From NCBI GenBank assembly GCA_012034595.1, contig JAAUPE010000047.1, positions 1-46,613 on the forward strand: a DNA stretch of 46,613 bases, written 5' to 3'. Below the pieces are notes generated by a model that was given only the letters and a program-made list of their open reading frames with translations, did not search any database and was not told the DNA's origin. A program made the position numbers and the translations under genes. Source of the DNA: Calothrix sp. CSU_2_0. Its GTDB lineage: Bacteria > Cyanobacteriota > Cyanobacteriia > Cyanobacteriales > Nostocaceae. The first letter of the stretch is position 1. Each line of letters begins with the position of its first letter. Positions 22,820 through 46,613 of this stretch are shown here, piece after piece.

Positions 22820-22908
22820 TTTTTGTGGTTTAGCAATTTTAAATAGTTTTATGTTATTGATAAGCAATATTAAACAGAATTATGCTTGTTGATAACACAT
22901 TTATTTTT

Positions 22909-23002: not shown

Positions 23003-23174
23003 GCTCTCTCTGGTAAGTAATTTATTTATGTGAGTTTGGAGAGATGAAGATTTTATCAATAAAAAGGAGAAAGTGTAAATTTGATAAAAGTTAGTTTTTG
23101 CAGGTTCAAATTTAATTTATTTAGCGATACATTTTTGGTTAAAGCTTGTAATCTCCTAACTATAAAACGAGTAT

Positions 23175-24470: not shown

Positions 24471-24504
24471 ATTTGAACCTGTTTAAAAGTCTAATAAATA
24501 TTTT

Positions 24505-25608: not shown

Positions 25609-25674
25609 TATTATTTGGTAGAAATATTAATTCATTGTCCTCTACCAAATCTTAAATAATAATAAATTAAATTG

Positions 25675-26140: not shown

Positions 26141-26203
26141 TGATTTCAATTAGATAAGTTTACCGCCACCGTTAGTTTCAGCACTTTGACAAGCTCAGTG
26201 CAT

Positions 26204-26365
26204 CGCTTCGCTCAACCAACTAAGGAGCGAGAGTTGAGCGAAGCGGAAACTCGTCAATCTGAGTATATTCTTTGCCAGAAATCACCTTAAAGTATTCGTA
26301 TTCCAAGAAAAAAAGTGCCGTCATTACGTAGCTTGCTTCTGGTGCTTCGGAGTACGCAATGACGG
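26204..26365. repeat. two REP-like hairpins
   Basis: CGCTTCGCTCAAC/GTTGAGCGAAGCG (26204-26245) is a perfect 13-bp stem. CCGTCATTACGTA/TACGCAATGACGG (26318-26365) pairs at 12 of 13. Similar palindromic units are scattered in cyanobacterial intergenic DNA. Confidence 0.65.
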
Positions 26366-26461
26366 GTTTTAGATCGTTTATTTGTTGGAACACTCTTATA
26401 CTGAGATTTCCGAAGTTTTGGAAAAATATTTTTGTGATAAAACCTGAAGCTAACCGTCAAG

Positions 26462-26495
26462 AAAAAACCGATCGCATTGATTGAATGCGATCGGT
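26462..26495 (-). terminator. Rho-independent terminator of the EF-G gene
   Basis: A perfect 12-bp stem ACCGATCGCATT/AATGCGATCGGT with a 5-base loop (26467-26495) is followed on the minus strand by TTTTTT (26462-26467). It lies about 70 bp beyond the EF-G stop codon. Confidence 0.85.
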
Positions 26496-26567
26496 AGATT
26501 CGGGTATATAAAGGGAGAGGCTATACAGCTAACACATCTCTACATACATGATTGGGCATATAAAATC

Positions 26568-28658: not shown

Positions 28659-29254
28659 GTTTAATGTTTAACTAATCTATTAGAATCGTTGGTGTTGGCG
28701 TAAGCCACTCCTTTCTGGAGTATCGCTTTGGCTTCCCTTGAGGAAGCTAGCCCTAAAATGGCAGCTATATAACTTAATCTGAAAAATTAATTAATATTGC
28801 CTTCTTAGCCAGCAAGGGCTGGATTTTTGTAACCTAGAATGGAGGATGTTTGTCCTTGATGTTCTGGGTAAACTTACATAATTGTTAAATAATTATAAGT
28901 TAACCTGTGTTTACTCAGGTCGATTTGGGTAGAAAAAAGCCCAGACTTTAATTGTAGACAGAGATAATCCTTCTGTGGGTGGTTGGGAGGTAATTACACC
29001 ACGGATTACGTTAACACAATTTTTTTGGCGATGGGGGCATTTTGTGGTATTGAGGGGAAGATTTATGAATTGCGATTTATTCCCAACTGAGAATTTAATT
29101 CTACAAAAAATCGTGTAATTAGGGGGTAGGGTTGTCTCGAATATAACAGGGGAAAAGCCGAACAATATTTATAGTTACCCTCACAAGCGATCGCACAAAT
29201 GAATATGTGCAATGTGAGGTAAACTGATTGCGAATATGCAATTAACTAAGGATT
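28659..29254. other. gap between EF-G and BASS genes
   Basis: Divergent promoter region of about 600 bp. It holds a nested hairpin AAGCCACTCC...GGAGT...TGGCTT (28702-28734) of a type common in cyanobacterial spacers. A minus-strand frame at 28911-29165 looks non-coding. Confidence 0.5.
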
Positions 29255-30136
29255 ATGGAATTTAATCTATTCACTGCCATTGTTTTACCTATAGCTTTAG
29301 GAATCATAATGCTAGGCATGGGTTTGAGCTTAGTACCCGAAGATTTTCTCGTAGTTACAAAAAAACCTAAAGCGATCGCAATCGGTTTAGTTAGTCAATT
29401 GGTTATTCTCCCTATTATTGGTTTTGCGATCGCGAGTATTGTGCCAATGCAACCTGAAATAGCAGTTGGGTTGGTGATACTATCAATATGTCCGGGGGGA
29501 CCATCTTCTAATCTAATTACTTACTTAGCAAAGGGAGATATAGTTCTTTCCGTTAGTCTCACCGCATTGAGTAGCATTATTACAGTATTTACAATCCCCA
29601 TTTTTGCTAATTTGGCATTACAACGCTTCCTTGGAGAAAGTGCCGCGATCGAATTACCAGTTGTTCAGACAATGGTACAAATATTTTTAATTACTCTTTT
29701 GCCTTGCGGTTTAGGAATGTGGATAAAACAGCAATTTCCCGATATTGCCAGACGATTAGAAAGAGTAACTAATAAACTGGCAATTATATTTTTATTTGCA
29801 ATTATCTCGGTTTTGATTATACGTGAATGGCAACGTCTTCCTAACTTTATTACTCAAGTTGGGATTGGAGTTGCCTTGTTAAACATAATTTCTTCATTCA
29901 GTGGATTTTGCTTGGGCAAGCTTTTTCAACTCAAACTTTCCCAACAAATTTGCATTGCCATCGAAGTCGGGATTCAAAATGGTACCCTTGCGATCGCAAT
30001 CACTGCGGGTTTACTCAAAAATCCGGATATGGCAGTTCCAGCAGCAGTTTATAGCTTGTTTATGTATGTGAGTGCTGCGATCGCAATTTTTTACGGTAGA
30101 AAGTTTGCAGCTACTAAGGTTATGAAGGTGAGCTAG
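29255..30136 (+). CDS. BASS-family (bile acid:sodium symporter-like) transporter
   Basis: 293 residues with about nine membrane segments. Family signatures are ICPGGPSSNLITYLAKGD (sodium-site loop) and EVGIQNGTLAIAI in the second repeat half. The real substrate in bacteria of this subgroup is unknown; organic anions are likely. TAAGGATT ribosome site 5 bases before ATG. The next membrane gene follows after 48 bp. Confidence 0.87.
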   Translation: MEFNLFTAIVLPIALGIIMLGMGLSLVPEDFLVVTKKPKAIAIGLVSQLVILPIIGFAIASIVPMQPEIAVGLVILSICPGGPSSNLITYLAKGDIVLSVSLTALSSIITVFTIPIFANLALQRFLGESAAIELPVVQTMVQIFLITLLPCGLGMWIKQQFPDIARRLERVTNKLAIIFLFAIISVLIIREWQRLPNFITQVGIGVALLNIISSFSGFCLGKLFQLKLSQQICIAIEVGIQNGTLAIAITAGLLKNPDMAVPAAVYSLFMYVSAAIAIFYGRKFAATKVMKVS

Positions 30137-30184
30137 TGAAATTACGCTAAATAAAATGTCGGAATCGTTTACTCGCTGGGTTGT

Positions 30185-30793
30185 GTGATGATAAAATATC
30201 GCTCTATTTTATGGCTCAATAGTTTATGTCTATTTACCGTCTTTGGTTTGCTTGCCTACACCAAATATGTCAATACATCAGCCGGAGCTTTATTCGCACC
30301 ACCCCATTTTCCAGATTCACCAACTGAGGGATTATTAACGAATATTTTTCAAATATTATGTGCCATTCCACCGTTTATTTGTGCTTTTAGTTTCGCGACT
30401 CTAAGAAAAATTAATCCTCAAAATAAAAATAATAATTTCATTCTTTATTCAGCATTATTAACATTAGGATTTTTGCTAAATGAAAAATTTAGGATTCATA
30501 TCATACTACTTACAACATTTGGAATCCCCAAGTTTGTAACCATAGTTGTTTACGCTCTAATTGGTCTTTGTTATGGAGTTGTTTTCAAACGAGAAATAAT
30601 CAAATCAACACCTTATATTTTACTTTTAGTCGGTTTGGGTTTACTCATTTCCGGTGTTTTAGTAGATTTATTACACTTGGCAAAGAGTTCTTCGACTCCC
30701 TTAGAAGGAATTCCGAAGTTGTTTAGCGGAATTAATGTGGTGCTTTACTATTGGCTGGTTTGTGATCAAGAAGTAGTAAATTCTTTTAAATAA
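30185..30793 (+). CDS. hypothetical membrane protein (202 aa)
   Basis: Five to six hydrophobic segments (about 8-26, 50-70, 82-97, 108-133, 142-163), the last half with 'VGLGLLISGVLVDLLHLAKSSS'. No motif recognised. Located just after the BASS transporter and on the same strand, so possibly one transcript. Confidence 0.65.
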   Translation: MMIKYRSILWLNSLCLFTVFGLLAYTKYVNTSAGALFAPPHFPDSPTEGLLTNIFQILCAIPPFICAFSFATLRKINPQNKNNNFILYSALLTLGFLLNEKFRIHIILLTTFGIPKFVTIVVYALIGLCYGVVFKREIIKSTPYILLLVGLGLLISGVLVDLLHLAKSSSTPLEGIPKLFSGINVVLYYWLVCDQEVVNSFK

Positions 30794-31064
30794 ACGTGAG
30801 TTCGATAGCGATCGTAAACTAGTTCAAATTCAATCCCAGAAAACTTAAACTATCAAAAGCCAAAGCATTACATCTGAATTATCCGCAGTAAATAAATACT
30901 TAATACCTAGTACTATCTAAAACCGCTACTTTTATCGTCGATTTCAAAAATGTGTGGTTGATTGACTTTTTTGGTTGATTCCTTTGTCGTTGTGTCACAT
31001 AATCGATCGCGAGATTGATGGTATTTTATGTACAACCTCCTTTATCCCAATCGCGATACAAGCT

Positions 31065-31703
31065 ATGACACTCAATTTATATTTACTGCGACATGGAGAA
31101 ACTACTTTTAGTCAAAGTGGTAATTTCTGCGGTGAAACTGATGCGGAGTTGACAAGAGAAGGGATGCAGATGGCAGAGAGTTTTGCCGATGTTTATCAAA
31201 AATTGAAGTGGGAAGCTGTTTATGTTAGCCCGATGAAGCGCGCAATCGCAACTGCCAAGCCATTTTGTGATGCTATCGGTATGAATATGCAGTTGCGTGA
31301 CGGACTTAAAGAAGGTAGTTATGGAGAATGGGAAACTAAGAGTAAATCATTTGCTCAAGAGAATTTTGCAGAAAACTATGTAAAATGGTTGACAGAACCC
31401 GCTTGGAATGCACCCAAAGGTGGAGAAACTGCGGTAGATATTGCTAACCGTTCTATGCCTGTAATTACTGAAATCCAAGAAAAACATCCCCAAGGTAATG
31501 TTTTAGTGGTTTCCCATAAAGCCACAATTCGGATTATGCTTTGCAGTTTACTGGGAATTGATTTGGGACGCTATCGCTATCGGGTAAATATTTTGGTCGC
31601 GTCGGTAAGTATGGTTAAATTTGACGTTAATGGTCCTTTGCTAGAAATACTAGGCGATCGCCATCATATACCCGATCTTATTCGCTCTCGTCCGGGAACA
31701 TAA
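31065..31703 (+). CDS. histidine phosphatase family protein (second copy in window)
   Basis: About 212 residues from ATG 31065, where MTLNLYLLRHGETTFS puts the phospho-histidine motif at the usual place; the longer frame from 30975 is unlikely. VSPMKRAIATA carries the arginine box and VVSHKATIRIML the second histidine. Resembles alpha-ribazole phosphatase/phosphoglycerate-mutase-like enzymes; substrate not known. Only moderately similar to the copy at 9332. Confidence 0.87.
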   Translation: MTLNLYLLRHGETTFSQSGNFCGETDAELTREGMQMAESFADVYQKLKWEAVYVSPMKRAIATAKPFCDAIGMNMQLRDGLKEGSYGEWETKSKSFAQENFAENYVKWLTEPAWNAPKGGETAVDIANRSMPVITEIQEKHPQGNVLVVSHKATIRIMLCSLLGIDLGRYRYRVNILVASVSMVKFDVNGPLLEILGDRHHIPDLIRSRPGT

Positions 31704-31912
31704 TATTTCCTACTAGTACAGGACGGCGGAAATAAGTTTACCATATTAAATGGCTGAAAAGCTTATAGAATATTCTTTATTCCTTCCGCCTTCTGACGCA
31801 TCGTAATCGTGTTGCGATCGCGCTAATGGGGATGGTCGTTGCGCGATGGTTTTATAATTTTTTGGGAATAATTATATTAATGATATATTAATGACAAAAA
31901 ATCATCAAAAAT

Positions 31913-32359
31913 ATGAATATCCAAGTTAAAGGTACGATCGCACCAGGTTATGGAGTCGCATCAGGGAAAGGTGGGGATTCCCGTTTTCCCCAAGGGACGA
32001 TCGCAATGCAAATACCTTTCTTCCAAGAATTAGGTTTGGATTTAAGTCCGTATTTTTCTGGTACGTTGAATATTTCGATTCATCCCCATCGCTATCGAGT
32101 AAAAAATTTTAAATATACATTTAGAAATGTTAAATGGTCTTCAACCGAACCAGCCGAAGATTTCTCTTTTTCTGATTGTCGGATATTATTTACTAATTCA
32201 TCTTTTGAGGGTTTAATTTACTATCCCCATCCGGAGACTAAACCCGAACATTTTCAAGCAGCCGATATTTTGGAAGTAATTGCACCAAAAATCAATGGTT
32301 TGAAGTATGGAGATATGGTGATATTAGAGTGCGATCGTACTCAAATCAATATCGTATAG
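31913..32359 (+). CDS. conserved-looking hypothetical protein (148 aa)
   Basis: Soluble protein starting MNIQVKGTIAPGYGVASGKGG. The pattern of a glycine-rich start, a 'PYFSGTLNISIHPHRYRV' strand and a late 'KYGDMVILEC' faintly recalls the CTP-dependent riboflavin kinase fold, but the resemblance is from memory and weak. Last gene before the second nifD core. Confidence 0.6.
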   Translation: MNIQVKGTIAPGYGVASGKGGDSRFPQGTIAMQIPFFQELGLDLSPYFSGTLNISIHPHRYRVKNFKYTFRNVKWSSTEPAEDFSFSDCRILFTNSSFEGLIYYPHPETKPEHFQAADILEVIAPKINGLKYGDMVILECDRTQINIV

Positions 32360-33202
32360 TTAAAAATATTAGTAATCTAGACAACTACAGTTTTCAAAGT
32401 AGACATGATTTATTATTTAGTTTAAAAATTAGTCTAAAAATTTATCTAATAAAAAAGAATTGAATTATACAGATACTCTTCAATGTAGATGTCAATTAAT
32501 ACGAAAACATATATTATATCTAGCTTTGATTGTTACCACACTAAATAAACATTGTTATTAATAAACTAAACTAAGATGATTTAGGCTAAAAATAGAAACA
32601 TAATTTTATTATCAAAACAAACCCCGTCGCTGCCTATATACCAACTCGATTACCAAGCTCGGAGTAATCCCAAGAATGCATTTGGCGGAAAGGTAAACCC
32701 ATCTTTTGGATATGATGTGGTAATCAAAAGCCAAACTCCAGTTCTTGGGGAGGACAAGATTATTAAAGTTTTGTCAATGCATAAACATGCAAATAATTAT
32801 GCGCTAACTAGCCAGACTTAGTAATAAAAAGTCAGCATAATACATACAGATGCAGAAAATTAATCAATACCTTCACAAGTACAAAAGCCATTTTGTTAGT
32901 AGATATTAAGCAATAAAAAAGAAATAAATCAACATAAAACGAGATATAAAACTATGCCATCAGAAATTCTGTATGCTAACAATTATTATCATTTAGTAGT
33001 TAGCATTCCTCATTTAGCAAATTAAGTTTATGTTTTAACAAGTTAATTAGCCTTGTTCATCGATTATCTAATATATAAATTATTGAACTAGCATGAATTG
33101 GTGTGTAGCTATATTTATAAATAATCAACAAATAGTCAAAGACAGATTTATCAAAAGCTAAAGTCAAGCTATTTACAAGGAAAAATCTACTATCCAAGAC
33201 TT
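32360..33202. other. element junction region
   Basis: Contains the second nifD core and the short nifD remnant, then about 490 bp of AT-rich DNA without genes before the lipoprotein. I could not find further nifD sequence here in any frame. Confidence 0.7.
32660..32710 (-). pseudogene. nifD: short nifD remnant with the second element core
   Basis: On the minus strand this reads QKMGLPFRQMHSWDYS, the NifD segment just before the excision site, ending in the core GGATTACTCCG (32660-32670). Upstream of QKMG the match stops: residues read ..LPHHI preceded by TGA, where NifD normally has a long conserved stretch. Only about 13 codons outside the core are nifD. The remaining roughly 420 codons are not in the window. 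Confidence 0.92.
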
Positions 33203-34078
33203 ATGAATAAAACTTTTAAGAAAACATTATTAGCAGTTGCAATTATAACAACCTTCACTAGTGGCTGTAGGTCTAAAGATGAATATAGAAAATTTGCTCA
33301 AGCTGGAAAGAATTTTGCTGACGCTAATAATGCTCTATTAGATGCTGCTGGAAACGTTACAGTTGATACAACTTCTGAAAGATTGTTAAGTTATAGAACT
33401 GGTCAAGAACTTAACCCGTCAGATGCTCAAAAAACTGCTGCTCGTTATGAAGAATTATCAAATCAAGATATAGAGCGTCTTGAGCTTATCAAAGAGCTTC
33501 GGAAGCATAACCAATTTTTGCAAGATTACTTTAATAAACTTATAGATTTAGCTGGTTCTGACTCTCCTGATAAAACTCAGAAGTCAGTTGATAATATAGC
33601 GTTACAGTTACAAAATAGTGGTGTCAAGCTGATAAATTTTGGCAAAATAGGTAAACTACCACCCGTGACAAAGATAATTCTTGATGCTCGAATTCGTGGT
33701 GCTATTAGAAAAGAATTAGAAAGGCGTAAAGAAACGATTTATCGAGAAATATCAATACAAGAAGAATCATTAAAAGTCCTGAGTAAGTCAATGGAGGATG
33801 ATATCAAAGTAATGCGAGATTTACAAAAATATCGTCTTGTTATTAAACCTCTACTTCAAGCAGAAAATATCGATGAAGATGATTGGATCGAAACAAGAAA
33901 TAAGCTAATAATACAGGACGATAGCGTAATATTAACTATTAATCAAGCAAAAGGAAGTTTAGGAGAACTAAAACAAATATTTATCGCTTCTATAGAGGGA
34001 GAATTAACTAGTAAACGGCTGAATAAATTTATTCAAGAAACTAATTCATTTTCAGAATTGGTGCTTAACAAAAAATAG
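33203..34078 (+). CDS. putative lipoprotein with coiled-coil character
   Basis: 291 residues. A lipoprotein-type signal (MNKTFKKTLLAVAIITTFTSGC, Cys22) is followed by a mostly helical, charged body (helices around 70-125 and 170-235). The -3 position of the lipobox is Thr, so lipidation is likely but not textbook. No enzyme motif. It is 19 bp before the caspase-like gene on the same strand and probably works with it; the role is unknown. Confidence 0.7.
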   Translation: MNKTFKKTLLAVAIITTFTSGCRSKDEYRKFAQAGKNFADANNALLDAAGNVTVDTTSERLLSYRTGQELNPSDAQKTAARYEELSNQDIERLELIKELRKHNQFLQDYFNKLIDLAGSDSPDKTQKSVDNIALQLQNSGVKLINFGKIGKLPPVTKIILDARIRGAIRKELERRKETIYREISIQEESLKVLSKSMEDDIKVMRDLQKYRLVIKPLLQAENIDEDDWIETRNKLIIQDDSVILTINQAKGSLGELKQIFIASIEGELTSKRLNKFIQETNSFSELVLNKK

Positions 34079-34097
34079 TTATGGGAGTATCTACACA

Positions 34098-37049
34098 ATG
34101 TCTATTAATTCTGAAACCGATGCTAAAGCGATTTTGGCACAATTAAGAGAAGCTGACTTAAAACTCAATCGACCAATTATTCAGGTTGCCATGCAAAGTG
34201 AAAGCAAGACGCGGGTAGAAGCATTTAACAAAGCGCGATCGCAAATTGCTGTTCAGATTAGAGAAATTGAGAATAGAACAATCTCCGAATTATTAACAGG
34301 TCTAAAATCAAACGAAGCTTCACTACAAAAAGGAATAGACAACTTAAACCGCGAAATTGAAACAGCTAATAATATAGCTAAAATTACGCAGGCAATTGAT
34401 AAAATTCTTAGTATTGTGACTGCGGTGTTGAGTCCAACGCGAGGAATCGAAAGTCGGAAGTTATATGCTTTGCTTGTGGGAATTGATAAATACCCCAACC
34501 CAAATCATTGCCTCCAAGGTTGTGTAAATGATATTACAGCAATTGAAGAGTATCTCAATGAACGCTTTGATAAAGAAGAATACCAGCTGCACTTACAAAC
34601 ACTAAAAGATGAACAAGCAACCCGTGAGGCAATTATTAATGGCTTCCGCAACCATCTTTGTCAAGCGGGAAGAGATGATGTAGTTTTGTTCTACTACAGT
34701 GGTCATGGTTCTCAGGAATCAGCACCCAAGGAATTTTGGCAGATAGAACCAGATGGTTTAGATGAAACTTTAGTATGCTACGACAGCCGTACCGAGAACG
34801 GTTGGGATTTGGCAGATAAAGAACTGGCAAAACTCATTACCGAAGTGGGAGAAAAAGACCCACATATTACCCTTATTCTCGATTGTTGCCACTCTGGTTC
34901 TGGTAGTAGAGACCAGATGGAAAAAGCTAAAGAACGTCGCTTAGACACAGACAAGCGATCGCGTCCATTGGATAGCTTTATTTTTAAGCTGGAAGATTTA
35001 GAAAAATTATCAGGTACCCGTGACCCAGAGAAACACTCCACTGGTTGGAAAATACCTACAGGTCGTCATGTGCTTTTAGCAGCATGTCGAGATTATGAAA
35101 CAGCAAAAGAATACCCTGGCAAGTTTCGGGGTTATTTCTCCTATTTTTTGATGGATACACTTGCCAAAGCCAATGGGAAGCTGACTTATCGGGATTTATT
35201 TGCACGCACAAATGCTATTGTCCGTAGTGAAAGACCAGATCAGTCTCCGCAATTGGAAGTAAATCACATCGAGGATGGTAACAAATTTTTCCTCGATGGT
35301 GCGATCGCAGAGGTTGAATCATACTTCATTGTCAACCATGACAAAACCTCTGCCTGGGTGATTGAAGGTGGTGCTGTCCACGGAGTACAACCACCCAAAA
35401 ATGGCGAAACGACTTTGTTAGCACTATTTAAATTTGACGCTAATAACGATGATTTGCGCGACCCGTCAAAATCTGTGGGTACAGCAAAAGTTACGGATGT
35501 ATTGCCAACTAAGAGCAAAATAGATATAGATATCGAAGGGGTAGAAAATCTGTCTACTGACACCACTTTTAAAGCAGTTGTCACCAGTTTACCACTACCG
35601 CCTCTAGGGGTATACTTTGAAGGAGATGAAGCGGGTGTAAATTTAGCCCGTGAACATCTAAAAATAGCCGGACTAGATAGTAAACCCTCAGCATATGTGC
35701 GTGAACCAGAAGACATTGACAACGCAGAGTTTCGCTTATTATGTCGCAATAATCAGTATATAATCACTAGACCCACAGATGAGCGTCCCTTAGTAGCCCA
35801 AATTGATGGTTACACCCCAGACAACGCAGACAAGGCAATTAAACGCTTAGAACATATTGCCCGGTGGACAACAATTACTCAACTTGCAAATACTTCAGCG
35901 ACCCAAATTAAAGCTGCTGATATGAAGATGGAACTCATCTTTGCGGATGAGGATTTATCGCAATCACAGCAGATGCGTTTGCAGTATAAATATCAAGATG
36001 GGAAATGGCAAAATCCAGAATTCAAACTGAAACTTACCAATACAACCAACAAACCACTCTACTGTGCTTTAGTCAACCTTTCAGACAGTTTTTCAATTAG
36101 TGCCCCATTTTTTACAACAGGTAGTGTGAGACTGGAAAAAGGACAAGAAGCCTATGCTTTAGATGGAGAAGAATTGGTACTCCAAGTCCCAGACAAGTAT
36201 TGGGAACAGGGGATTACCGAGTACAAAGATGTAATTAAATTGATTGTGAGCAACAATGAATTTGATGCCAGATTACTAAATCAGGATAAACTTGATGCTC
36301 CTAGACCTACAACTAAAGATATAGAATCTTCAAATCAAAGTAGTCTTGAGCGTTTGATGAATCGCACGCAAAATCGTGAAATCAGAGCTAAAAGTGAGGC
36401 AGTGAGCTTTGACGATTGGTATGCTGAGGAAATTACAATCACCACAGTCCGTCCCCTAGATTCTACCCCAGTTTCTCAGGAACAAGAACGACAATTAGCA
36501 ACAGGGGTAATACTACAACCTCATCCCAGCTTAATCGCCAATGTTCGCCTCACAACCTTACCGCAAGTCAGCCAATATTTGGGTAATAAAATTGTGCCCC
36601 CCATCCTGCGGGAAAATCCAGAAGTTATTCAACCCTTTCAATTTACCACTAGTCGCGGCACAGACCCAGGATTAAGTGTATTGGAATTAACTGAAGTTGC
36701 AGACTATGCAATTGTGACTTCAGATGCACCTTTAAAATTATTAGTTGATAGACAACTAGCAAACAATGAATACTTGCTGGCTGTGGGTTATGATGGCGAA
36801 TTTTTCTTACCATTAGGTTCTGGAAAAGCAACTACAAATGGCAAAATAGAAATTGAGTTAGAAAGATTACCAGCCCCTGTGAGCGAGGGAGAACGTAGTT
36901 TGCAAGGCTCCATTCGCATCTTCTTTCAAAAAGTCATTAGCCAGGGTTTGGGACGAGAATTTAACTGCGATCGCCTGAGTTATTTCCTGAGCGAACAGAC
37001 CACAGTTGGCTTAGAAGCTTTAGTTACAGCTATTAGACTACAGAAATAA
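34098..37049 (+). CDS. caspase-like protease (C14/metacaspase-type), 983 aa
   Basis: An N-terminal helical segment (about 1-115) precedes a caspase-hemoglobinase-fold domain: LYALLVGIDKYP, His203 in YYSGHGSQ and Cys264 in LILDCCHSG, so the His-Cys dyad is intact. After about residue 410 comes a long beta-rich part (SSLPLPPLGVYFEGDEAG..., then DUF4384-like 'PLKLLVDRQLANNEYLLAVGYDGEFFLPL') that may act as a sensor or partner-binding region. Such proteins are numerous in filamentous cyanobacteria, and few have known targets; roles in regulated cell death or phage response are proposed for the family, not shown here. Confidence 0.88.
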   Translation: MSINSETDAKAILAQLREADLKLNRPIIQVAMQSESKTRVEAFNKARSQIAVQIREIENRTISELLTGLKSNEASLQKGIDNLNREIETANNIAKITQAIDKILSIVTAVLSPTRGIESRKLYALLVGIDKYPNPNHCLQGCVNDITAIEEYLNERFDKEEYQLHLQTLKDEQATREAIINGFRNHLCQAGRDDVVLFYYSGHGSQESAPKEFWQIEPDGLDETLVCYDSRTENGWDLADKELAKLITEVGEKDPHITLILDCCHSGSGSRDQMEKAKERRLDTDKRSRPLDSFIFKLEDLEKLSGTRDPEKHSTGWKIPTGRHVLLAACRDYETAKEYPGKFRGYFSYFLMDTLAKANGKLTYRDLFARTNAIVRSERPDQSPQLEVNHIEDGNKFFLDGAIAEVESYFIVNHDKTSAWVIEGGAVHGVQPPKNGETTLLALFKFDANNDDLRDPSKSVGTAKVTDVLPTKSKIDIDIEGVENLSTDTTFKAVVTSLPLPPLGVYFEGDEAGVNLAREHLKIAGLDSKPSAYVREPEDIDNAEFRLLCRNNQYIITRPTDERPLVAQIDGYTPDNADKAIKRLEHIARWTTITQLANTSATQIKAADMKMELIFADEDLSQSQQMRLQYKYQDGKWQNPEFKLKLTNTTNKPLYCALVNLSDSFSISAPFFTTGSVRLEKGQEAYALDGEELVLQVPDKYWEQGITEYKDVIKLIVSNNEFDARLLNQDKLDAPRPTTKDIESSNQSSLERLMNRTQNREIRAKSEAVSFDDWYAEEITITTVRPLDSTPVSQEQERQLATGVILQPHPSLIANVRLTTLPQVSQYLGNKIVPPILRENPEVIQPFQFTTSRGTDPGLSVLELTEVADYAIVTSDAPLKLLVDRQLANNEYLLAVGYDGEFFLPLGSGKATTNGKIEIELERLPAPVSEGERSLQGSIRIFFQKVISQGLGREFNCDRLSYFLSEQTTVGLEALVTAIRLQK

Positions 37050-37113
37050 TCTGCAACCAGTCTATCTTTTGCCTTACTCATTTTTGCTTTTATTCGGCTA
37101 AGGGGGTGCATTA

Positions 37114-40100
37114 ATGTCCAAACATAATTTTCACCGTAATTTCGCTGTTATTATTGGTATTAATAGTTATCAAAATGGTGTTAGAAAGTTAAAAACGGCA
37201 GTTCCGGATGCTCTGAAATTAGCTGAAATTATTCAAAAGCAACATGAGGCTCTAAAACCCCAATATCAAGAGCAGAATAGGTATGAAGTTCAATTATTTT
37301 TAAATCAACGTGCAAGTCTCAGTCAACTAAAGCAATTAATTGCCGACTTCCAACAAGGAAAAATAACTTTTGATAACGAAAAAGTTACAGTTACCAAAGA
37401 CGATCGCCTTCTTTTCTACTTTGCTGGACATGGCATTGCTTTAGATGCTTTGGAAAATCAAGAAGGACCAGTGGGTTACTTGATTCCTCAAGATGCCACA
37501 TCAGGAGATAGCAGTACCTACTTGCCGATGCAGGAATTACATGATGCCTTGAATGCACTTCCCTGTCGGCACATGTTAGCAATTCTCGATTGCTGCTTTG
37601 CTGGAGCTTTCCGTTGGGCATGTCTCAATCGAGAAATTGCACCCAAGTTCAAAGTATACAAGGAACGCTACGACCGTTTTATCCGCGATCGCGCTTGGCA
37701 AGTAATTACGAGTGCTGCCGACGATCAGAAAGCCTTGGATTCTTTGGGAAGACGAGGAATTGTCACAGAGGAAAATGAAGAACATTCTCCTTTTGCTAAA
37801 GCTCTGTTTGATGCAATGCTTGGGAAAGGTGCAGATTTAAATCAAGATGGCATTATTACCGCAACTGAAATTTACTCACATTTGCGGGATCGGGTAGAAA
37901 TTGTCACCGAAACCTACTACCAGCGCCAAACTCCTAGTTTGTGTCCACTGAGGAAACATGATAAAGGGGAATTTATCTTTCTCTCCCCTGAGTTTGACCG
38001 AGATAAATTGGAAGATGCACCTCCACTAAATATAGAAAATAATCCCTACCGAGGATTATCTTCCTATGATGAAAAAGACAAGGATTTGTTTTTTGGTAGA
38101 GAAGAACAAATTCAAAAGCTTTACCAGAAAGTAGTTGATAACAAACAACAATTAACATTAGTGTTGGGTGCTTCGGGAACGGGTAAATCTAGTTTGGTGA
38201 AAGCTGGACTTATTCCTAAACTCAAGAGGGATGATAAAACTTGGCGTATCCTGCCCCCTTTTCGACCAGGGGAGTCTCCTTTGAAGTCATTGAATAACGT
38301 ACTAGAATCGGTCAAGCAGCCTTTAATCCAAGCAGCAACATCTTCCCGTTTATTCACCCCAGCCGAAGAAAGTTTGGGAAATTGGTTCAAGAATAATCCT
38401 CAAGCAAAGCTACTGGTGGTTATCGATCAGTTTGAAGAATTGATAACTTTATCTAAGAGTGAAGAAGGAGAAAAATTTCAGATATTTATTAAAAATTCAC
38501 TTAAGAAATATCCCAATAAAATCCATGTAGTTATTACCTTGCGACTCGATTTTGAAGCGCTGTTTCAAACCTCGGTACTCAAAGACTTTTGGAATGATGA
38601 TGCTCGGTTTGTTGTTTCACCAATGAGCCAAAATGAATTCCGGGAAGCAATTGAGAAACCTGCATTACAAAAAGTTATATATTTCGACCCTCCCAGCTTG
38701 GTAGACGAACTAATTAATGAAGTCCTACAAATGCCAGGTGCTTTACCTTTGCTGTCTTTTACCCTGAGTGAATTGTACCTGAAGTATTCAGCGATCGCAC
38801 TAGGGATAACCGGGCTGTAACCAAGAAAGATTACGAAGATTTGGGAAGGGTGGTTGGTTCTCTAACCAAGCGTGCAAACCAGGAATATGAGGAATTAGTT
38901 AAAGAAAACCCCGCTTATCAAGATACGGTGCGTCGGGTAATGTTACGGATGGTTTCATTGCAAGGTGGGGAATTAGCAAGGCGACAGGTTACTAAATCGG
39001 AACTGGTGTATCCTAGTCAAGAAGAAAGCGATCGCGTACAAGAAGTAATCAAACGTTTTTCTGAAGCCCGTTTAATAGTTGAAGGTTCCAATTCCGAAGG
39101 TGAACCTTATGTAGAGCCAGCACATGATGCTTTGGTGCAGGGGTGGGATAAGTTGCTGGCTTGGAAAAAAGAAGATGAAGAGAAAATAATTTTACAACGG
39201 CGACTGACACCATCTGCCGAAGAATGGAAAAGCAAACAACAGCCGCAGTTTCTTTGGAATGCTGATCCCTACCTGGATGTGTTGAAAGAGATACTTAACT
39301 CACAAAACAACAACTGGTTGAACCAAGTAGAAACTGAATTTGCGCGACGAAGTATTAAGCGAAGACGTAACAACAGTGTTACCCGTTGGAGCCTGGTAAA
39401 TGCTGCATTTCTAGTATTGATTGTTGCTACTGGTATTGCAACTATATATGGTATTGATGCTCAAAACCGATTACTTGAAGCTTCTAGTGCTTTAACACAA
39501 GAACGTTTAGCTTCTAAGGATGAGTTAGAAGCACTCATAGAAGGTATTAAAGCCGGAGAAAGTCTGAAAAATGCGTTTCCATTTGTGATTAGGGAAGATA
39601 CCAAGATGCGAGTCATCCTTGCTTTAAGAAAGACCGTTTACGAGATGAGGAAGCGCAATCGTCTGGAGGGACATGATGGGGATGTTATGAGTGTAGCTTT
39701 TAGCCCCGATGGTGAGGTGATTGCTTCAGCAAGTGCGGACAAAACCATCAAATTGTGGCGGCATGATGGTAAAGTTCTCCAAACGCTCAAAGAGCATAAA
39801 GGCGAAGTTTTTAGCGTCAGTTTTAGTCTTGATGGTAAAATTCTCATCTCTGCTAGCTCTGATAAGACGATAAAACTGTGGCAGTATCAGCCGAATCAAA
39901 CTTTCACATTGCTCAAATCTATAACAGACAAAGAAGGAATTGGGGCTGTTAGTTTGAGTTCGGATAAACAGACTATCGCAACTGCTACAAATGCAAATTC
40001 CACAGGAAAGTATACCGTAAAGCTTTGGCATTGGAATGGTAAACTACTCTCAACTTTTCCCGGACATAACGATCAAGTTAGGGGTTTGAATTTTAGTCCT

Positions 40101-41479
40101 GATGGTCAAACTATTGCTTCAGCAAGTTTGGATAACACTATCAAACTCTGGAATGTTAAAAACTACAAGCTAGTCAAAGATATAAAAGGCACTGAAAATT
40201 TTTTTGGGGTACGTTTTGTTGATAATCAATTAATTGCGGCAGCTAGCGCTGACAATACCGTACAACTTTGGAATGTCAAAGGTCAACAAATCGGTACTTT
40301 GACACGTCATACAGATGATGTACATTACTTGGATGTGAGTCGAGATGGCAAAATGATCGCTTCTATCAGCAAGGATGAGACGGTTAAAATTTGGAGCCTA
40401 AAAGATAGTCAAGAAGTGCAAAATATTGAAATTCCTAATGTAACTATCAACCAACCTAGTTTTAGTCCAGACAGCCAATGATAGCTTTAGCTAGTACCGA
40501 TCAATCTGTACATATCTGGAGCCGTAATGGTATGGCATCACCGACAAGTTTACGAGGAACTAGCCTTAGTTTCAGCCCAAATGGTCAAGTAATTGTTTCA
40601 GGAACTGAGGATGGTACTGTGAAGCTATGGCATAGAAATGGCAAGTTATGGCGAACTTTTAAAGCACACAATCAGAGAATATTAAGAGTTAAATTTAGTC
40701 CTGATAGTAAAACAATTGCTTCTATTAGTAAAGACGGAGTGCTAAAATTATGGAATCTTAAAGGGCAATTAATTAACACTATAAAAGACAAGAAAAATCG
40801 TGTTTTAGGTATGAGTTTCAGCCCAGACAGTAAAAAAATTGCCTCAGCCAATAGTGACAAAACAGTGAAGCTTTGGGAACTAGATAGTAAGCTCACATTA
40901 CCTAAAATTATGCTCGATCATAATAAAGAGGTTCGGAGCGTGAACTTTAGCCCAGATGGCAACACGATTGCTTCAGCTAGTGATGACAGAACAGTTAAGC
41001 TTTGGAGTTTAGATGGAAAATTACGCAAAACTTTTTTAGGTCATGAAAAGGCAGTTTTAGATGTCAATTTCAGTCCCAACGGTAAGATGATTGTGACCGC
41101 TAGCAGCGATAAGACTGTAAGAATTTGGGATATAAATAGAAAATTGCTTAAAATCCTTAAGGATGAAAAAAATAATTTTTCAAAAGCTAATTTTAGCCCT
41201 AGCGGTCAAAATTTAATTTCCGGAAGTAGTGATGGAACAATTAAAGTATGGAGTTTGGATGGCAGTTTGTTGGGAACTTTGCAAGGGGATAAGACTTATG
41301 TATTTGATGTCAGTTTCAGTAATGACGGTAAAACAATTGGTTCGGCTAGCTATCCAGAAAAAGTGATTCTTTGGAATTTTGATTTGGATGATTTACTCAG
41401 CCACAGTTGCAGTTGGTTACGTGATTATCTAGGTAATAAATCAAGCGCTAATCAGACCAATATCTGCCACCAAAACTAA
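37114..41479 (+). pseudogene. caspase-STAND ATPase-WD40 fusion, broken by two frameshifts
   Basis: Three consecutive frames (37114-38820, to 40481, and 40478-41479) make one protein of about 1,450 residues. In order: caspase domain (His106 in FYFAGHGI, Cys161 in ILDCCFAG); an EF-hand-like loop DLNQDGIITATE (241-252); a STAND ATPase starting NPYRGLSSYDEKDKDLFFGR with Walker A GASGTGKS (352-359) and Walker B VVIDQFEEL; a winged-helix part; one membrane segment (VNAAFLVLIVATGIATIYGI); and 14 WD40 repeats, enough for two seven-bladed propellers. The first slip is near 38788-38791, just after LSELYLKYS, where the other frame continues TRDNRAVTKKDYEDLG. The second is at 40476-40478 inside WD repeat 7 (SPDSQ / MIALAS) and leaves an ATGA stop-start overlap. 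Confidence 0.87.
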
Positions 41480-41849
41480 CTAAAAATAGCTAGTAACCCT
41501 CAATCAGTTGTTTTACCTTGGCGTAGCTTCGCTTGCGCTTAAACTATGATTCTTTAGACATAGAAATGCTAAGTCTCTATAGATTTTTAATTTTTCATAA
41601 TTCATCTATTATTACTATAATTATATATTATTAATGGCATCAAAATTAAAAAAAAATATTCAAAATATTTTTATGAAAATGGAGAATAAAATCATTTTTT
41701 ATGAATATAGAAATGATAATTATGCTATCATATTAATTATGATATTTACAGCAGTTTTCAAACAAAGCCGTCACAAAAATAATTAAAAAAAGCCCAGAAT
41801 AAGTTTTAATATTTCTATCTGTGACAGGTTTGATTGCAATTTACTGTAA
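41480..41849. other. gap after the WD40 gene
   Basis: Strongly AT-rich, with no coding frame, hairpin or repeat that I can support. Confidence 0.5.
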
Positions 41850-41888
41850 ATGCAAAATACCAGATCGAAATCTAAATTTTTAACGCAT

Positions 41889-42104
41889 ATGCCACTACCA
41901 ATTTATAGTTCAAATTCCAACGATCCCAAGTACCGAAGAGCTAACGTTTTATATGACGAGGCTATGTCAATCGCTTATACCGATAAAGCAACAGCCCTAA
42001 ACAAACTTAGAGAAGTCATACCACTCTTACAAAGCTGTAATGAGACGGGAGGAATCGAATTGGTAAAACAGAAAATTAGAGAATTAGGAGGGAGGGTAGA
42101 TTGA
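41889..42104 (+). CDS. small hypothetical protein (71 aa; 84 aa from the upstream ATG)
   Basis: From ATG 41889 the frame reads MPLPIYSSNSNDPKYRRANV and continues as a helical, TPR-like segment (LYDEAMSIAYTDKATALNKLREVIPLLQSC). The in-frame ATG at 41850 would add 13 basic residues. No membrane segment. Real but unassigned; start uncertain. Confidence 0.5.
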   Translation: MPLPIYSSNSNDPKYRRANVLYDEAMSIAYTDKATALNKLREVIPLLQSCNETGGIELVKQKIRELGGRVD

Positions 42105-42480
42105 GTTATCTTTTATGCCAGTTTCAAGAGCGATCGCACTGTCCGTGAGAGTGTAACATCAACTACTCGTTGAGCTTTGCGATGGTTGCTGATAAATGCG
42201 ATCGCTTGGAGGTCGATTTATTAGGGTTTCTTGGAAAGTGCGATCGCCTTCTCCAAAACCTCTTGGTGCAAAAGTCCGATCGCTCTTTTTGTAAAAATGT
42301 ACAAAATCCTGTATGAGATTTGCACTTTTGTGCATAGATTAAAAATTAATCTGCAATTAGAATTAGCACATACTTCAATATTTATATTCCTACACTAAAA
42401 AACTTCAGCTTCCTTAACATGGGTAGAGTGTGATGGCAATAGTAAGCTTAGAAAAACATCAAATTTATGGGTATTGACCA
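42105..42480. other. HIP1-rich spacer upstream of the two-component genes
   Basis: Several GCGATCGC or near-HIP1 sites occur between 42129 and 42285. A TGTAAAAATGTACAAAATCC segment (42290-42310) could be a regulator site for the downstream operon, without firm support. Confidence 0.5.
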
Positions 42481-43143
42481 GTGGAAAAAAAGTTGGATAT
42501 TCTGGTTGTCGATGACCATCAATTAGTTTTGACTGGCACTCTGGATACATTAAGTAAACAGTATCCAGAAGCGAATATACTAAAAGCTCAGACAGCCAAA
42601 GAGACGCTGACTTTACTTCAATCTCAATCGTTTTACCTGATTATGATGGATTTGTCGATTCCCAATCAGCCAGGAGAAACGGCAGAAATTGATACGGGAA
42701 TTAAACTGTTGCAAACTTTGCTCAAAGAATATCCCGATCGCAATTTCATGGTGCAAACTAGTTATGTAAAGGCATTAATCCGGATTAAGCACGAGATTGA
42801 CAACCATCAGGCTGGTTTTACGATCGCAGATAAAGGATTATCCAAAGCGGAAATGCTGATACGGGTTAATTTGGCTCTTCAGGGTGGCACTCACACCAAA
42901 GACATCAAAACAAGTATTGAACTTAAACCGGAATGGTTGGAAGTGTTGCGGTTGGCTTTTGAAGAGAGTTTGACAGATAAAGCGATCGCCGATAGGATGT
43001 ACAAATCTGAGCGAGCAGTACGTACTTACTGGACGAAAATTCAAGATGTGTTGGGAGTGTATCCGGAAGACTGCAAGCAAAGCGGTAAGAATATGCGAAT
43101 CCAAACCGAAATTCGTTCCCGTGAAGAAGGTTTAATTGACTAA
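42481..43143 (+). CDS. response regulator, receiver plus LuxR/NarL-like HTH
   Basis: Starts at GTG 42481. The receiver domain has the acidic pair Asp11-Asp12 and phospho-acceptor Asp57 (LIMMDLSIPN), then the lysine in IADKGLS. Residues about 150-205 form a four-helix HTH (ALTDKAIADRMYKSERAVRTYWTKIQ). An insertion 'QPGETAEIDTGIK' after the active aspartate is unusual. It lies 28 bp before the histidine kinase, so it is very likely its partner. Confidence 0.87.
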   Translation: MEKKLDILVVDDHQLVLTGTLDTLSKQYPEANILKAQTAKETLTLLQSQSFYLIMMDLSIPNQPGETAEIDTGIKLLQTLLKEYPDRNFMVQTSYVKALIRIKHEIDNHQAGFTIADKGLSKAEMLIRVNLALQGGTHTKDIKTSIELKPEWLEVLRLAFEESLTDKAIADRMYKSERAVRTYWTKIQDVLGVYPEDCKQSGKNMRIQTEIRSREEGLID

Positions 43144-43171
43144 GACGCAGGATTATTAATCCGGAAACGAG

Positions 43172-45061
43172 ATGGAAAGGAGAATCTGGAATCGCATTCG
43201 TCAAGAATTGGGATTATGGTCGCAGGCTGCACCACCGGGGATAATGGTGTTGGTTGTGGTGATATTGATCCGTATTACTGGAGGAATGCAATCTTTAGAA
43301 TGGATGCTCCTTGATACTATGTTACGTCTTCGTCCAGTAGAAAAAGTCGATGAACGTGTAGTCATTGTGGGTATCGATGAAGAGGATATTGAATGGGTTG
43401 GACAATACCCAGTTCCAGATGAAAAAATTGCCCAGTTACTCACCAAGCTAGAAACCTATCAACCGTTAGCAATTGGATTAGATATCTTTAAAAACGTCCC
43501 TGTGCAACCTGGTGGTGAAAAACTCACACAGGTATTGCAGAAAAATACAAATATTATTGGGATTGAAAAAATATTACCACCGGGAGAAACTCCCCCACCT
43601 CGAAGTTTGCCACCGGAACAAGTTGGATTTGTTGATTTACCTAATGATGGGGATAGCAAAAATCGACGCTATTTGTTGTATACAGCAAATCCTAGTAATC
43701 CTGATAATATCAACGAAGATAAATATTCTCTAGCATTGCGGTTAACTATCAAGTACTTCAAAGCGGCAGGAATTGATTTAGAAACAGGAAAAAAAGACCA
43801 GAATACAATCAGATTTCGTGAGATTGAATTACCACGCATCACCAAGAATTTTGGTGGATACGTGAACGTTGATGATGGGGGATTGTCAATTGTGATGAAC
43901 TTCCGCAACAATTCTCAGCCTTTTCATATTGTGTCGCTACAAGATATTTTCAATGGGAAAGTTGATGGAAAATTGTTGCGCGATCGCATTGTCTTAGTTG
44001 GCAATCGCAATATGAGTACTGGGGATATTTTTTATACATCTGCGTTGCCAAACTTAAAATTAAGTGGTCAAATTTATGGCATTGAATATCACGCTCATGT
44101 CATTAGTCAAATTCTTAGTACTGTCATCGAGAATCGCCCAATGTTGCACAGTTGGGGGGATATAGAAGAGTATATATGGATATTTCTTTGGGGATTTTTA
44201 CCGATTGTGATTGGACGAATAACCCAATCTGTATGGAAAAATATACTTAGTGTTGGTGTCACAGGATTTTGTCTGTTTAGCTGTGGGTATGTAATGCTGT
44301 GGGTATGGGGTATCTGGATACCTGTAGCACCAAGCTTGCTGATATTAGCGTTGAATGGGGTTGGCTTGAGTGCTTTTGCATTTTACCAGCACGATAAATT
44401 CTTGCGATCGCAAATAAACGAACGTCAAAATACAATTCAAAACACTTTTACAATCATACATAATGGTCCTTTGCAAACCCTTGCCTATGGATTACAGCAC
44501 ATGCGTACTCAAGATATCCCCTATGAAGAACTGATTCGGCAATTTGAAAAACTAAATCGAGAAATTCGGGAAATTGGCGAATTTCTCAAAGTTGAAGCAT
44601 TAACAAAAGAAGAGAGTTTGCGTTTAGGTAGTGGATTAATACTTGAATTAAATCGACCACTTCACGATTTATTATATGAAGTTTATTCAAGTACTTTGGA
44701 ACGTCAAGACTTTGAAAATTTTCAAACATTAAAAGTCAAGATTCGTAATTTCGAGCCGATTGATGATAAGTATTTAACTAAAGAATGTAAACGAGGAATA
44801 TGTCTATTTCTGGAAGAAGCTTTATGTAATGTTGGTAAACATGCTCAAGGAGTCAAGCGCGTTCAAGCATCTGGTGTTTATATTGGGAATATATATAAGT
44901 TATCGGTCAAAGATAACGGTTTAGGAATTAAATCAAAGCTAGAAAATAAAGGCACAAAAAATTCTAAAATCCTTGCCAAACAATTAAGAGGAGAGTTTCG
45001 ACGAGAATCTCTTTCTCCTCGTGGGACTATATGCGAACTTAGTTGGACACTTATGAAATAA
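43172..45061 (+). CDS. CHASE2-domain sensor histidine kinase
   Basis: 629 residues. An N-terminal membrane segment (about 22-36) is followed by an extracytoplasmic CHASE2 domain (VVIVGIDEEDI, LAIGLDIF, LRDRIVLVGNR, DIFYTSALP, YGIEYHAHVISQIL). Three more membrane segments lie at about 330-410. The kinase core has a phospho-histidine in IIHNGPLQTLA (NarL-family kinase style) and an ATPase with FLEEALCNVGKHA and VKDNGLGI. It should sense an unknown envelope signal and phosphorylate the response regulator encoded just upstream. Confidence 0.9.
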   Translation: MERRIWNRIRQELGLWSQAAPPGIMVLVVVILIRITGGMQSLEWMLLDTMLRLRPVEKVDERVVIVGIDEEDIEWVGQYPVPDEKIAQLLTKLETYQPLAIGLDIFKNVPVQPGGEKLTQVLQKNTNIIGIEKILPPGETPPPRSLPPEQVGFVDLPNDGDSKNRRYLLYTANPSNPDNINEDKYSLALRLTIKYFKAAGIDLETGKKDQNTIRFREIELPRITKNFGGYVNVDDGGLSIVMNFRNNSQPFHIVSLQDIFNGKVDGKLLRDRIVLVGNRNMSTGDIFYTSALPNLKLSGQIYGIEYHAHVISQILSTVIENRPMLHSWGDIEEYIWIFLWGFLPIVIGRITQSVWKNILSVGVTGFCLFSCGYVMLWVWGIWIPVAPSLLILALNGVGLSAFAFYQHDKFLRSQINERQNTIQNTFTIIHNGPLQTLAYGLQHMRTQDIPYEELIRQFEKLNREIREIGEFLKVEALTKEESLRLGSGLILELNRPLHDLLYEVYSSTLERQDFENFQTLKVKIRNFEPIDDKYLTKECKRGICLFLEEALCNVGKHAQGVKRVQASGVYIGNIYKLSVKDNGLGIKSKLENKGTKNSKILAKQLRGEFRRESLSPRGTICELSWTLMK

Positions 45062-45530
45062 ATTTAAAGCACAGAATCAAGTTCCTGTGAATGCGCTTGA
45101 ATTAGTTCCGTAAAATATTACACAGTAACCAAATTTATTTGGTTAGTTCAAATTTTTGTGTATTCCGAAGTGGAGAAGCGGATATACCTAACTTGTATAA
45201 GAGTTTTGATTTTTTGTATGTCGTTACACAGCTATGTTTATCCGAGCCAAGCTACTTAATTTTGTATTAGTACCTGTATTTTATATATATCAGTATATTT
45301 TGAGTAAGTGCATAAATTGATTTTGCTAGTACCTATAAAAGAATGTCAAAGAAAAACTGCACCGCTTGACTTTCATTCAGTAAATCACGCAGGCATATTG
45401 TAGAATTACAATTGTGTGAATGTTTAATTCCTAAAAATTTGTTTTAAGTTCAAATTTTTATTAATGATGAGTTGAATAAAAAGTTCGGAAAGTAAGAGTT
45501 TTAGACAGCCATACAACCAACAACAGCACC
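45062..45530. other. gap between kinase and DUF928 genes
   Basis: AT-rich, 469 bp, with no gene or clear terminator seen. It probably holds the promoter of the DUF928 gene. Confidence 0.5.
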
Positions 45531-46271
45531 ATGAGACACCAACCTTTTGGATTTTGGCAAAATAAAAATAGCCATAGATTTACGAGCTTAGTTGTGGGAG
45601 TGCTTTTCTTGATGACTGCACTTCCAGTATCTGCCCAATATAAACCACGCGATCGCAAACCAGCAAGCGGAAATAGCCGTGCAGGTGGTTCCCGTGGATG
45701 TTCGAGTAACGGTATTCCCCTAACCCAACTTGCACCTCAGACATTTGTTGGAAAAACTGCTTCTACACGTCCAATGTTAGCTTGGTATATGTCAAGTTCT
45801 CAAAACGTGCGATTCCGACTGTTTGAAGTTGATTCCGCAAAAAGCGTTAAACAAATCGGCAAAGTTCAAGAGATACCCACAATAATCGGGATTAATCAGC
45901 TAAAACTTCCCCTCAATTACCCCGAACTCACAGTAGGTAAAACATATTTATGGCAAATTGTCATTGACTGCAACAATACTACAATTCTTAACCAAGCAGA
46001 ATTTATCGTCATCCAACCTCAATCACTGCCCAAGAACCAATTTACTACCATTCCAGAAAGGGTCAATTATTATGCTGGAAATGAACTATGGTATGAAGCA
46101 CTGGAAGAAGCATTGAAAGAAACCAATAATGGTCAATTAGGGAAAATTGCGGCAACTTTAGTTCAAGAGCTTGCACAGTTGGAAATACTAAAGGGTAGTG
46201 ACAGCAACAGAGATATAAAAAATATTCAGCAACGAATCGAACATCTCCAGAAAATTGCCAGCGAAAACTGA
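45531..46271 (+). CDS. DUF928 family secreted protein
   Basis: 246 residues. A signal peptide (FTSLVVGVLFLMTALPVSAQ) is followed by a Gly/Ser/Arg linker and the DUF928 body: GIPLTQLAPQTFVGKTASTR, MLAWYMSSSQNVRFRLFE and LNYPELTVGKTYLWQIVI, then a helical C-terminus (YYAGNELWYEALEEALKE). The family is known mainly from cyanobacteria and often sits near CHASE2 proteins, as here; its function is unknown. It may be the extracytoplasmic partner of the CHASE2 kinase (inferred). Confidence 0.85.
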   Translation: MRHQPFGFWQNKNSHRFTSLVVGVLFLMTALPVSAQYKPRDRKPASGNSRAGGSRGCSSNGIPLTQLAPQTFVGKTASTRPMLAWYMSSSQNVRFRLFEVDSAKSVKQIGKVQEIPTIIGINQLKLPLNYPELTVGKTYLWQIVIDCNNTTILNQAEFIVIQPQSLPKNQFTTIPERVNYYAGNELWYEALEEALKETNNGQLGKIAATLVQELAQLEILKGSDSNRDIKNIQQRIEHLQKIASEN

Positions 46272-46574
46272 GAGGAAATAGAAGCAAACGAATCAACATA
46301 CTTAGGAATTGCGAATAAAGCTATAACCTTTGCAAAATATTAGTTTTAACCCTTTTTCAGGCAAATAAGTGCCATTCGTTATGGGATTTAAAGGCTCAAA
46401 ATCCATGCACTTTGGTGGAAAATATCTGGGTGAATTTTGAATTTGACCATCTTTTAAATTAAAAGTCAAAAGTAAAAAGGTAAAAGAAAGAAGAATATTT
46501 CTTTTTATCTTTATCTCAACGGATACAAGCCCCTGAATTGATTCATGGAGAAAGATAAAGATTCCTTGTTTCAA

Positions 46575-46606
46575 GCCCCTAGATTTATCTCTGGGGTTTT
46601 CTTTTT
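46575..46606 (+). terminator. Rho-independent terminator
   Basis: CCCC/GGGG plus AGA/TCT form a short stem (46576-46596) followed by TTTTCTTTTT. It probably ends the DUF928 transcript. Between 46272 and 46574 I see no further gene. Confidence 0.65.
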
Positions 46607-46613
46607 ACCTTTA

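Follow-up and report, generated by a model that had tools for sequence, protein, structure and literature searches.

Can the nifD gene of Calothrix sp. CSU_2_0 still be made whole, and by what route? The window analysed here is the whole of contig C46 (46,613 bases), one of 306 contigs of a draft assembly of 7.44 Mb with a stated completeness of 96.5%. On the minus strand of the window, the part of nifD that lies past the distal copy of an 11-bp repeat measures just 40 nt (Q K M G L P F R Q M H S W). It ends at position 32710, and the DNA beyond bears no relation to nifD. A preliminary description of this stretch had noticed the same thing, i.e., about 13 codons of nifD past the repeat core at 32660 followed by unrelated DNA, and had proposed a second insertion in the gene. 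The insertion is present, but the count was too low: we find four elements, not two.

The missing parts of the gene were located by a Pfam search (PF00148) and NifD searches across the whole genome of the strain. These recovered nifD in five pieces distributed over four contigs, C198, C10, C59 and C46 (the window):

Contig C198: nifD piece 1, NifD residues 1-240.
C10:5454-5530, minus strand, both repeats included: nifD piece 2, about 22 codons, NifD residues about 237-262.
Contig C59: nifD piece 3, NifD residues 259-444.
Window 32660..32710, minus strand: nifD piece 4, a 51-nt micro-exon with the repeats on both sides counted in, QKMGLPFRQMHSW.
Window 22678..22819, minus strand: nifD piece 5, the 3' end with the stop codon, NifD residues 448-496 at 96% identity, beginning with the 11-bp repeat.

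Exact end overlaps of 15–150 bases among these four contigs were searched for and none was found, so that the element sizes given for this strain are minima and the order of the pieces rests on coding collinearity. At each of the four junctions the neighboring pieces share a short repeat in the register of nifD:

Site 1, nt 710: repeat TCGGT (5 bp), at C198:19722-19726 and C10:5526-5530.
Site 2, nt 777: repeat GTCCGGTGAC (10 bp), at C10:5454-5463 and C59:3999-4008.
Site 3, nt 1310: repeat TCCAAAAGATGG (12 bp), at C59:4532-4543 and window 32699-32710, minus strand in the window.
Site 4, nt 1350 in the numbering of this gene: repeat GGATTACTCCG (11 bp), at window 22809-22819 and 32660-32670, both on the minus strand.

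Joined at these in-register repeats (12, 10, 5 and 11 bp), the five pieces give a coding sequence of 1491 nt for a NifD of 496 residues, with no stop. The chance of an in-register repeat, estimated per junction as (run length + 1) x 4^-(run length), gives an expectation of about 1e-5 to 8e-7 for the matches of 10–12 bases and of about 0.6% for the match of 5 bases; the short repeat of element 1, 5 bp, was counted against the reading with four elements. The repeat of site 4 occurs twice in the window, with a mean of 0.00 in 100 shuffles. For site 3, one suggestion of the preliminary description was that the codons for F and Q of FQKMG are separated by a further excisable element, of at least 13.9 kb, to be recognized if the 5' segment of nifD broke off at ...YVF beside a short repeat of the same sequence. 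This suggestion is supported: nifD in C59 reads ...KYVF|QKMG and carries there the same 12 bases found in nifD register at the outer edge of the micro-exon, an XisF-class recombinase gene lies close to the end of the element, and the same place is occupied in related genomes.

Taken together, these sequences make it very probable that four elements of the heterocyst interruption kind, excisable and site-specific, divide nifD here. Elements 1 to 3 would each be excised by their own XisF-class serine recombinase, and element 4 by a putative tyrosine recombinase that resembles XisA. The excisions would take place in differentiating heterocysts, where four independent DNA excisions would rebuild nifD.

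Element 3, inserted at the outer edge of the micro-exon, is divided between the window and C59:

Window 32711..46613: the part of element 3 proximal to the 3' side of nifD (13.9 kb), recognized by the shared repeat and by an end sequence matching the elements of two other genomes of the genus, G068 and G019.
C59:4544-10902: remainder of element 3, at least 6.36 kb, including the recombinase gene.
C59:4602-5941: element-3 recombinase gene, starting about 58 bases from the repeat.
Window 34098..41479, plus strand: cargo, an ORF with a caspase domain followed by caspase-nSTAND1 and WD40 ORFs.
Window 43172..45061, plus strand: cargo, CHASE2-domain protein.
Window 45531..46271, plus strand: cargo, DUF928 protein.

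In total the element measures at least 20 kb. Its far end holds the gene of an XisF-type serine recombinase, and the element shows the traits of an interruption element: insertion within a gene, a reading frame restored by its removal, direct repeats at the ends and a recombinase gene near one of them. In this assembly the recombinase gene is broken by a frameshift, one fragment matching the Pfam Resolvase domain and the other the Recombinase and zinc ribbon domains. Open versions were found in G019, G068, G117, G208 and G146, all at site 3; those of G019 and G068 are 95% identical, and those of G117, G208 and G146 are 53–54% identical to that of G019. With the NCBIfam XisF model (NF041201, cut-off 375 bits) the G019 protein scored 464.8 bits, and the N-terminal fragment of our strain, taken alone, scored 222.3, below the cut-off. 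In a tree the six site-3 recombinases grouped together with weak support (75/49), compatible with one origin or with two. The end sequences of the element are near-identical in our strain, G068 and G019. Between our strain and G068, sharing is confined to these end sequences and the recombinase end, and the cargo present in the window, which also includes response-regulator proteins, gave no match in the G068 element (tblastn, 1e-6). The caspase-nSTAND1-WD40 gene is apparently a single gene split over three frames, with another caspase-domain ORF adjoining it.

The recombinase genes of elements 1 and 2 have open frames:

C10:5591-6928: element-1 recombinase, XisF-class.
C59:2590-3939, minus strand: element-2 recombinase, XisF-class.

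Both scored over the XisF cut-off, with 491 bits for element 1 and 411 bits for element 2. The XisF-class recombinases of elements 1 to 3 share the Pfam Resolvase, Recombinase and zinc ribbon domains, and each gene starts about 60 bases from one end of its element. The element-1 protein is 96% identical to that of G068 and 85% identical to that of G019, each encoded next to site 1 in the same orientation; the element-2 protein is 49–54% identical to recombinases encoded next to site 2 in G021, G071, G122 and G132. Matches to the XisH family were found in all six genomes searched, ten of them in our strain, and none could be placed within elements 1 to 3. The cargo of element 2 resembles a type I secretion set, with a C39-peptidase ABC exporter, an HlyD protein, a PPIase and an RTX-repeat protein (C10:131-4922 and C59:290-1801).

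Element 4 lies entirely within the window and is of the nifD-1355 type:

Window 22809..32670: element 4, 9851 bp from repeat to repeat, with the 11-bp repeat at both ends.
Window 23175..24470, plus strand: putative element-4 tyrosine recombinase, xisA-like, with a weak Phage_integrase match and a protein 82% identical in the G068 element.
Window 26571..28667, minus strand: paralog of elongation factor G (EF-G).

Its site, at nt 1350 in our numbering and with an 11-bp repeat, fits the nifD site at about 1355. The recombinase reached 21.9 bits with Phage_integrase, below the cut-off of 27.1, and its best NCBIfam score was 16.6 bits for a cut-off of 220; no XisA model in NCBIfam matched it. The EF-G paralog is 95.7% identical to its counterpart in G068 (G068:C1:4161908-4164004), and is thus retained in both nifD-1355 elements though that of G068 spans just 4.7 kb.

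A first search covered 145 genomes of the family, in which the genus is represented, besides our strain, by G068 and G019. The nifD of G068 consists of four pieces (NifD residues 1-238, 233-445, 436-453 and 447-496) that are collinear on a single contig of 7.2 Mb (C1), a near-complete chromosome, and spread across about 225 kb of it, as judged by blastn positions. Its elements at sites 1, 3 and 4 measure about 156.9, 61.6 and 4.7 kb, site 2 is empty, and the joined NifD has 494 residues and no stop. In G019, site 1 (right end only) and site 3 are occupied and site 4 is empty; the first 233 residues of its NifD were not found. A single contig covers NifD 435-496 in G019 (C439) and 439-492 in G146 (C161), in both cases with site 3 occupied and site 4 empty, which indicates that elements 3 and 4 are separate units. 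In G117, from another genus, sites 3 and 4 are both occupied within one contig (C250) by elements of about 11.5 and 10.8 kb, around the same micro-exon. Besides the two genomes of the same genus, three from two other genera have the element at site 3, in these cases diverged.

Typing of the sites was extended to 213 of the 217 available genomes of the family (G024, G134, G192 and G209 gave no rows), any nifD copy spanning a site being counted as uninterrupted. Site 1 is uninterrupted in 210 of the 213; the three in which it is interrupted are those of this genus. For site 3, 176 genomes are uninterrupted and at least six interrupted (G000, G019, G068, G117, G208 and G146, from three genera), the remaining 31 having no listed downstream piece. 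Of these six, G000, G068, G117 and G208 also have an element at site 4, which is empty in G019 and G146. At least seven genomes have an interrupted site 2 (G000, G021, G071, G088, G103, G139 and G122); the nifD of G122 lies in two pieces on opposite strands although its row extends past the site. A search of the 217 genomes at E<=1e-80 gave relatives of the element-3 recombinase in 10, in six of them at site 3. No NifD was found in the flanks examined of those from G107, G083, G012 and G100 or of a second relative in G117. Some of the relatives located elsewhere (L187, L188 and L190) have a similar end motif, TGTGGTA(A/C)TA, shortly upstream of the gene. In G192 two contig ends (C328:1-63 and C138:1-99) both begin near NifD residue 436 and may represent one more site-3 case; the main nifD piece of this genome was not found.

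Selection on the pieces was estimated from their substitutions. Compared with G068 over codons 1-470, dN/dS was 0.044 (128.5 synonymous and 30.5 non-synonymous changes), and compared with G019 over codons 238-496 it was 0.017 (40 synonymous and 3 non-synonymous). Even the counted parts of the smallest pieces follow this trend, with 11 synonymous and 0 non-synonymous changes in piece 2 and 3 and 0 in piece 4. By this measure the nifD pieces have been under strong purifying selection since these strains diverged, and a gene that is never restored by excision would not be expected to show such constraint.

Some neighboring genes are in a different state. In our strain nifN is split into two frames (window 17706-19024); G068 and G019 have it in one open frame. 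The nifH of the nif cluster, upstream of nifD (C198:18709 to about 18850), has lost its middle, and what is left is about 23 codons at the 5' end and 20 at the 3' end; a full-length nifH is present at C38:69677-70486. G068 and G019 also have nifH in several partial pieces, and G068 has in addition a full-length copy. The frameshifts in the element-3 recombinase and nifN and the internal deletion in nifH may reflect decay of the nif cluster in this strain, or indel errors in the assembly. For these damaged genes assembly error, recent loss and, for element 3, a recombinase acting in trans are all possible. An error bound to a particular sequence motif was considered for the two frameshifts and gained no support from word counts, ACCATTTG and ACCATTG occurring 4 and 23 times in our strain, 8 and 22 times in G068 and 7 and 65 times in other cyanobacteria; a sporadic sequencing error is possible.

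It is from this damage that the most durable rival explanation draws its strength, namely that nifD is dead and its elements are remnants fixed in place, with a broken recombinase in element 3 and a decaying nif cluster, as the frameshifts in that recombinase and in nifN and the deletion within nifH would suggest. We regard it as unlikely. The five nifD pieces contain neither stops nor frameshifts and rejoin in frame, so that the coding sequence itself lends no support to the dead gene that the preliminary description had listed among its options. The dN/dS with G019 points the same way, though a recent loss would be compatible with that value. Besides, the element-1 and element-2 recombinases, nifK and nifE are open, and nifN is the only split gene among the 17 genes of this strain matched by reference ORFs, a set that does not include the element-3 recombinase.

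With its own recombinase seemingly frameshifted in this strain, element 3 would need to be excised in trans by another XisF-class enzyme, or else by the frameshifted product. The complete scheme, with four excisions by four recombinases, new sites at about 710 and 1310, pieces down to 13 codons and element 3 removed in one of these two ways, is in its full detail unlikely.

The other alternatives fare much worse. Some genomes of the family, e.g., G107 and G132, have two nifD rows, and the locus could in principle be a second, degenerate copy beside an intact nifD, an outcome that the preliminary description had foreseen as fatal to its proposal. This is very improbable here, as the whole-genome PF00148 and NifD searches gave no other nifD in an assembly that is 96.5% complete, and among the other PF00148 places only NifE matches NifD at E<=1. 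A further alternative is a composite, in which the DNA past 32711 would belong to the XisA element after capture of an old junction, so that nifD would be restored by one excision starting at an ...HSWDYS site upstream. Judged from the window by itself this was a reasonable option, but we found nothing in its favor and reject it: the upstream piece in C59 ends in ...YVFQKMG rather than ...HSWDYS, and G019 and G146 have site 3 occupied with site 4 empty. A misassembly at about 32711, conceivable in a fragmented draft and in a window that stops at a contig end, is practically ruled out by independent assemblies, given that the micro-exon and its flanking ends recur together inside one contig of G068 and again, with a diverged element, in G117.

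For the four-element reading, the likely points of crossover could be narrowed down further. For each element, the two ends were joined in silico as they would be in the excised circle, and the joint was scored for dyad symmetry against 500 base shuffles. In the case of element 3, tested in our strain, G068, G019, G117 and G146, the dyad was centered in all five joints on one and the same dinucleotide, TG in the ATG codon of Met440 (window 32700-32701). The number of pairs out of 25 was 17 in our strain (p 0.004), 16 in G068 (p 0.012), 16 in G019 (p 0.026), 16 in G117 (p 0.004) and 17 in G146 (0 of 500 shuffles). In G068, G019 and G117 the repeat at the left of site 3 is not identical to the one at the right, yet they agree across this ATG, as a crossover there requires. 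In both joints tested for element 1 the dyad was significant, centered on TC in our strain (17 pairs, p 0.004) and on TT in G068 (17 pairs, p 0.002). Element 2 gave no significant dyad, the best having 13 of 25 pairs and lying outside its repeat (p 0.196). From these symmetries we infer that crossover would occur at the TG of the Met440 codon for element 3 and at TC (TT in G068) for element 1. Excision would then be expected to leave in heterocyst DNA, at one site, the rejoined nifD junction GTCTTCCAAAAGATGGGTTTACC, and to produce the circle joint GATTACCACATCATATCCAAAAGATGGATTATAAATATAATGTGGTAAT. With such candidate dinucleotides at hand, the site choice of XisF-type recombinases is open to direct test.

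The elements belong to a known kind. In the part of their survey available to us, Hilton, Meeks and Zehr (2016; PMC4874684) report 101 interruption elements, 34 of them in nifD, with four nifD variants, and name the nifD positions 227, 895 and 1355. The features common to those heterocyst elements, i.e., an interrupted gene, repeats at the ends, a serine or tyrosine recombinase near one end and several elements per gene, are those seen here. The orientation of the recombinases also corresponds to what the survey describes, the one oriented like nifD (element 3) standing at the start of its element and the opposed ones (1, 2 and 4) at the end. The survey already includes a nifD with four elements, that of Rivularia sp. 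PCC 7116. It also mentions EF-G paralogs in several elements, among them the Rivularia nifD-1353 element, and describes cargo as generally variable; element 4, with its EF-G paralog and other cargo, is in this light an ordinary member. The preliminary description was therefore right that multiple insertions in nif genes are known (PMC4874684), and the novelty that it saw in the arrangement holds for the sites but not for the number of elements. No later survey of nifD elements was seen in the open-licence literature.

Which of the sites are new depends on the fourth nifD variant. The nifD of G103 is interrupted at codons ~80, ~260, ~304 and ~450, and that of G139 likewise. G103 we take to be Rivularia PCC 7116 or a close relative. 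The interruptions of these two genomes indicate that the fourth variant is most likely at the element-2 site (codon ~260, nt ~777). The sites of our strain at about 710 and 1310 differ from this position and from 227, 895 and 1355, the variants that can be identified from the survey (Hilton et al., 2016), and they seem to be new, in a comparison in which the fourth position is itself deduced.

Individual elements can also be compared with the best known cases. The fdxN element of Nostoc sp. PCC 7120 is associated with XisF, and the recombinases of elements 1 to 3 likewise fall in the class defined by the NCBIfam XisF equivalog cut-off, although these elements sit in nifD, at three separate sites. 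The repeat of the fdxN element is presumably of 5 bp, like TCGGT of element 1. Element 4 lies at the same site as the XisA nifD element (nt ~1355), has 11-bp repeats and carries its recombinase at the nifK-proximal end; we assume that its repeat is the XisA repeat. Outside the cyanobacteria, we know of no case of several elements in one gene among elements of the SP-beta and skin kind. Developmental excision of SP-beta and skin rebuilds host genes of sporulation (PMC4191935, PMC5025042); those elements are prophages or prophage-like and reside in spore-formers, unlike the nifD elements considered here.

It is well supported, then, that a known kind of element has divided this nifD into five pieces by four insertions, two of them at seemingly new sites, and excision is what the sequences would imply. 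The fragmentation is extreme for a developmental gene under strong selection, with coding islands of only about 13 and 22 codons, and with four pieces spread over about 225 kb in the sister genome. The set of nifD elements gains two insertion sites with their own recombinases, one of them common to three genera. Other interruptions were also seen. At G129:C109:57916-61003 nifD is interrupted at about codon 158, which is not among the sites 227, ~777, 895 and 1355. In G068, nifK holds an insertion of about 8.6 kb (G068:C1:4149866-4158486), and an additional XisF-like recombinase is encoded immediately upstream of nifD (G068:C1:4384963-4386279).
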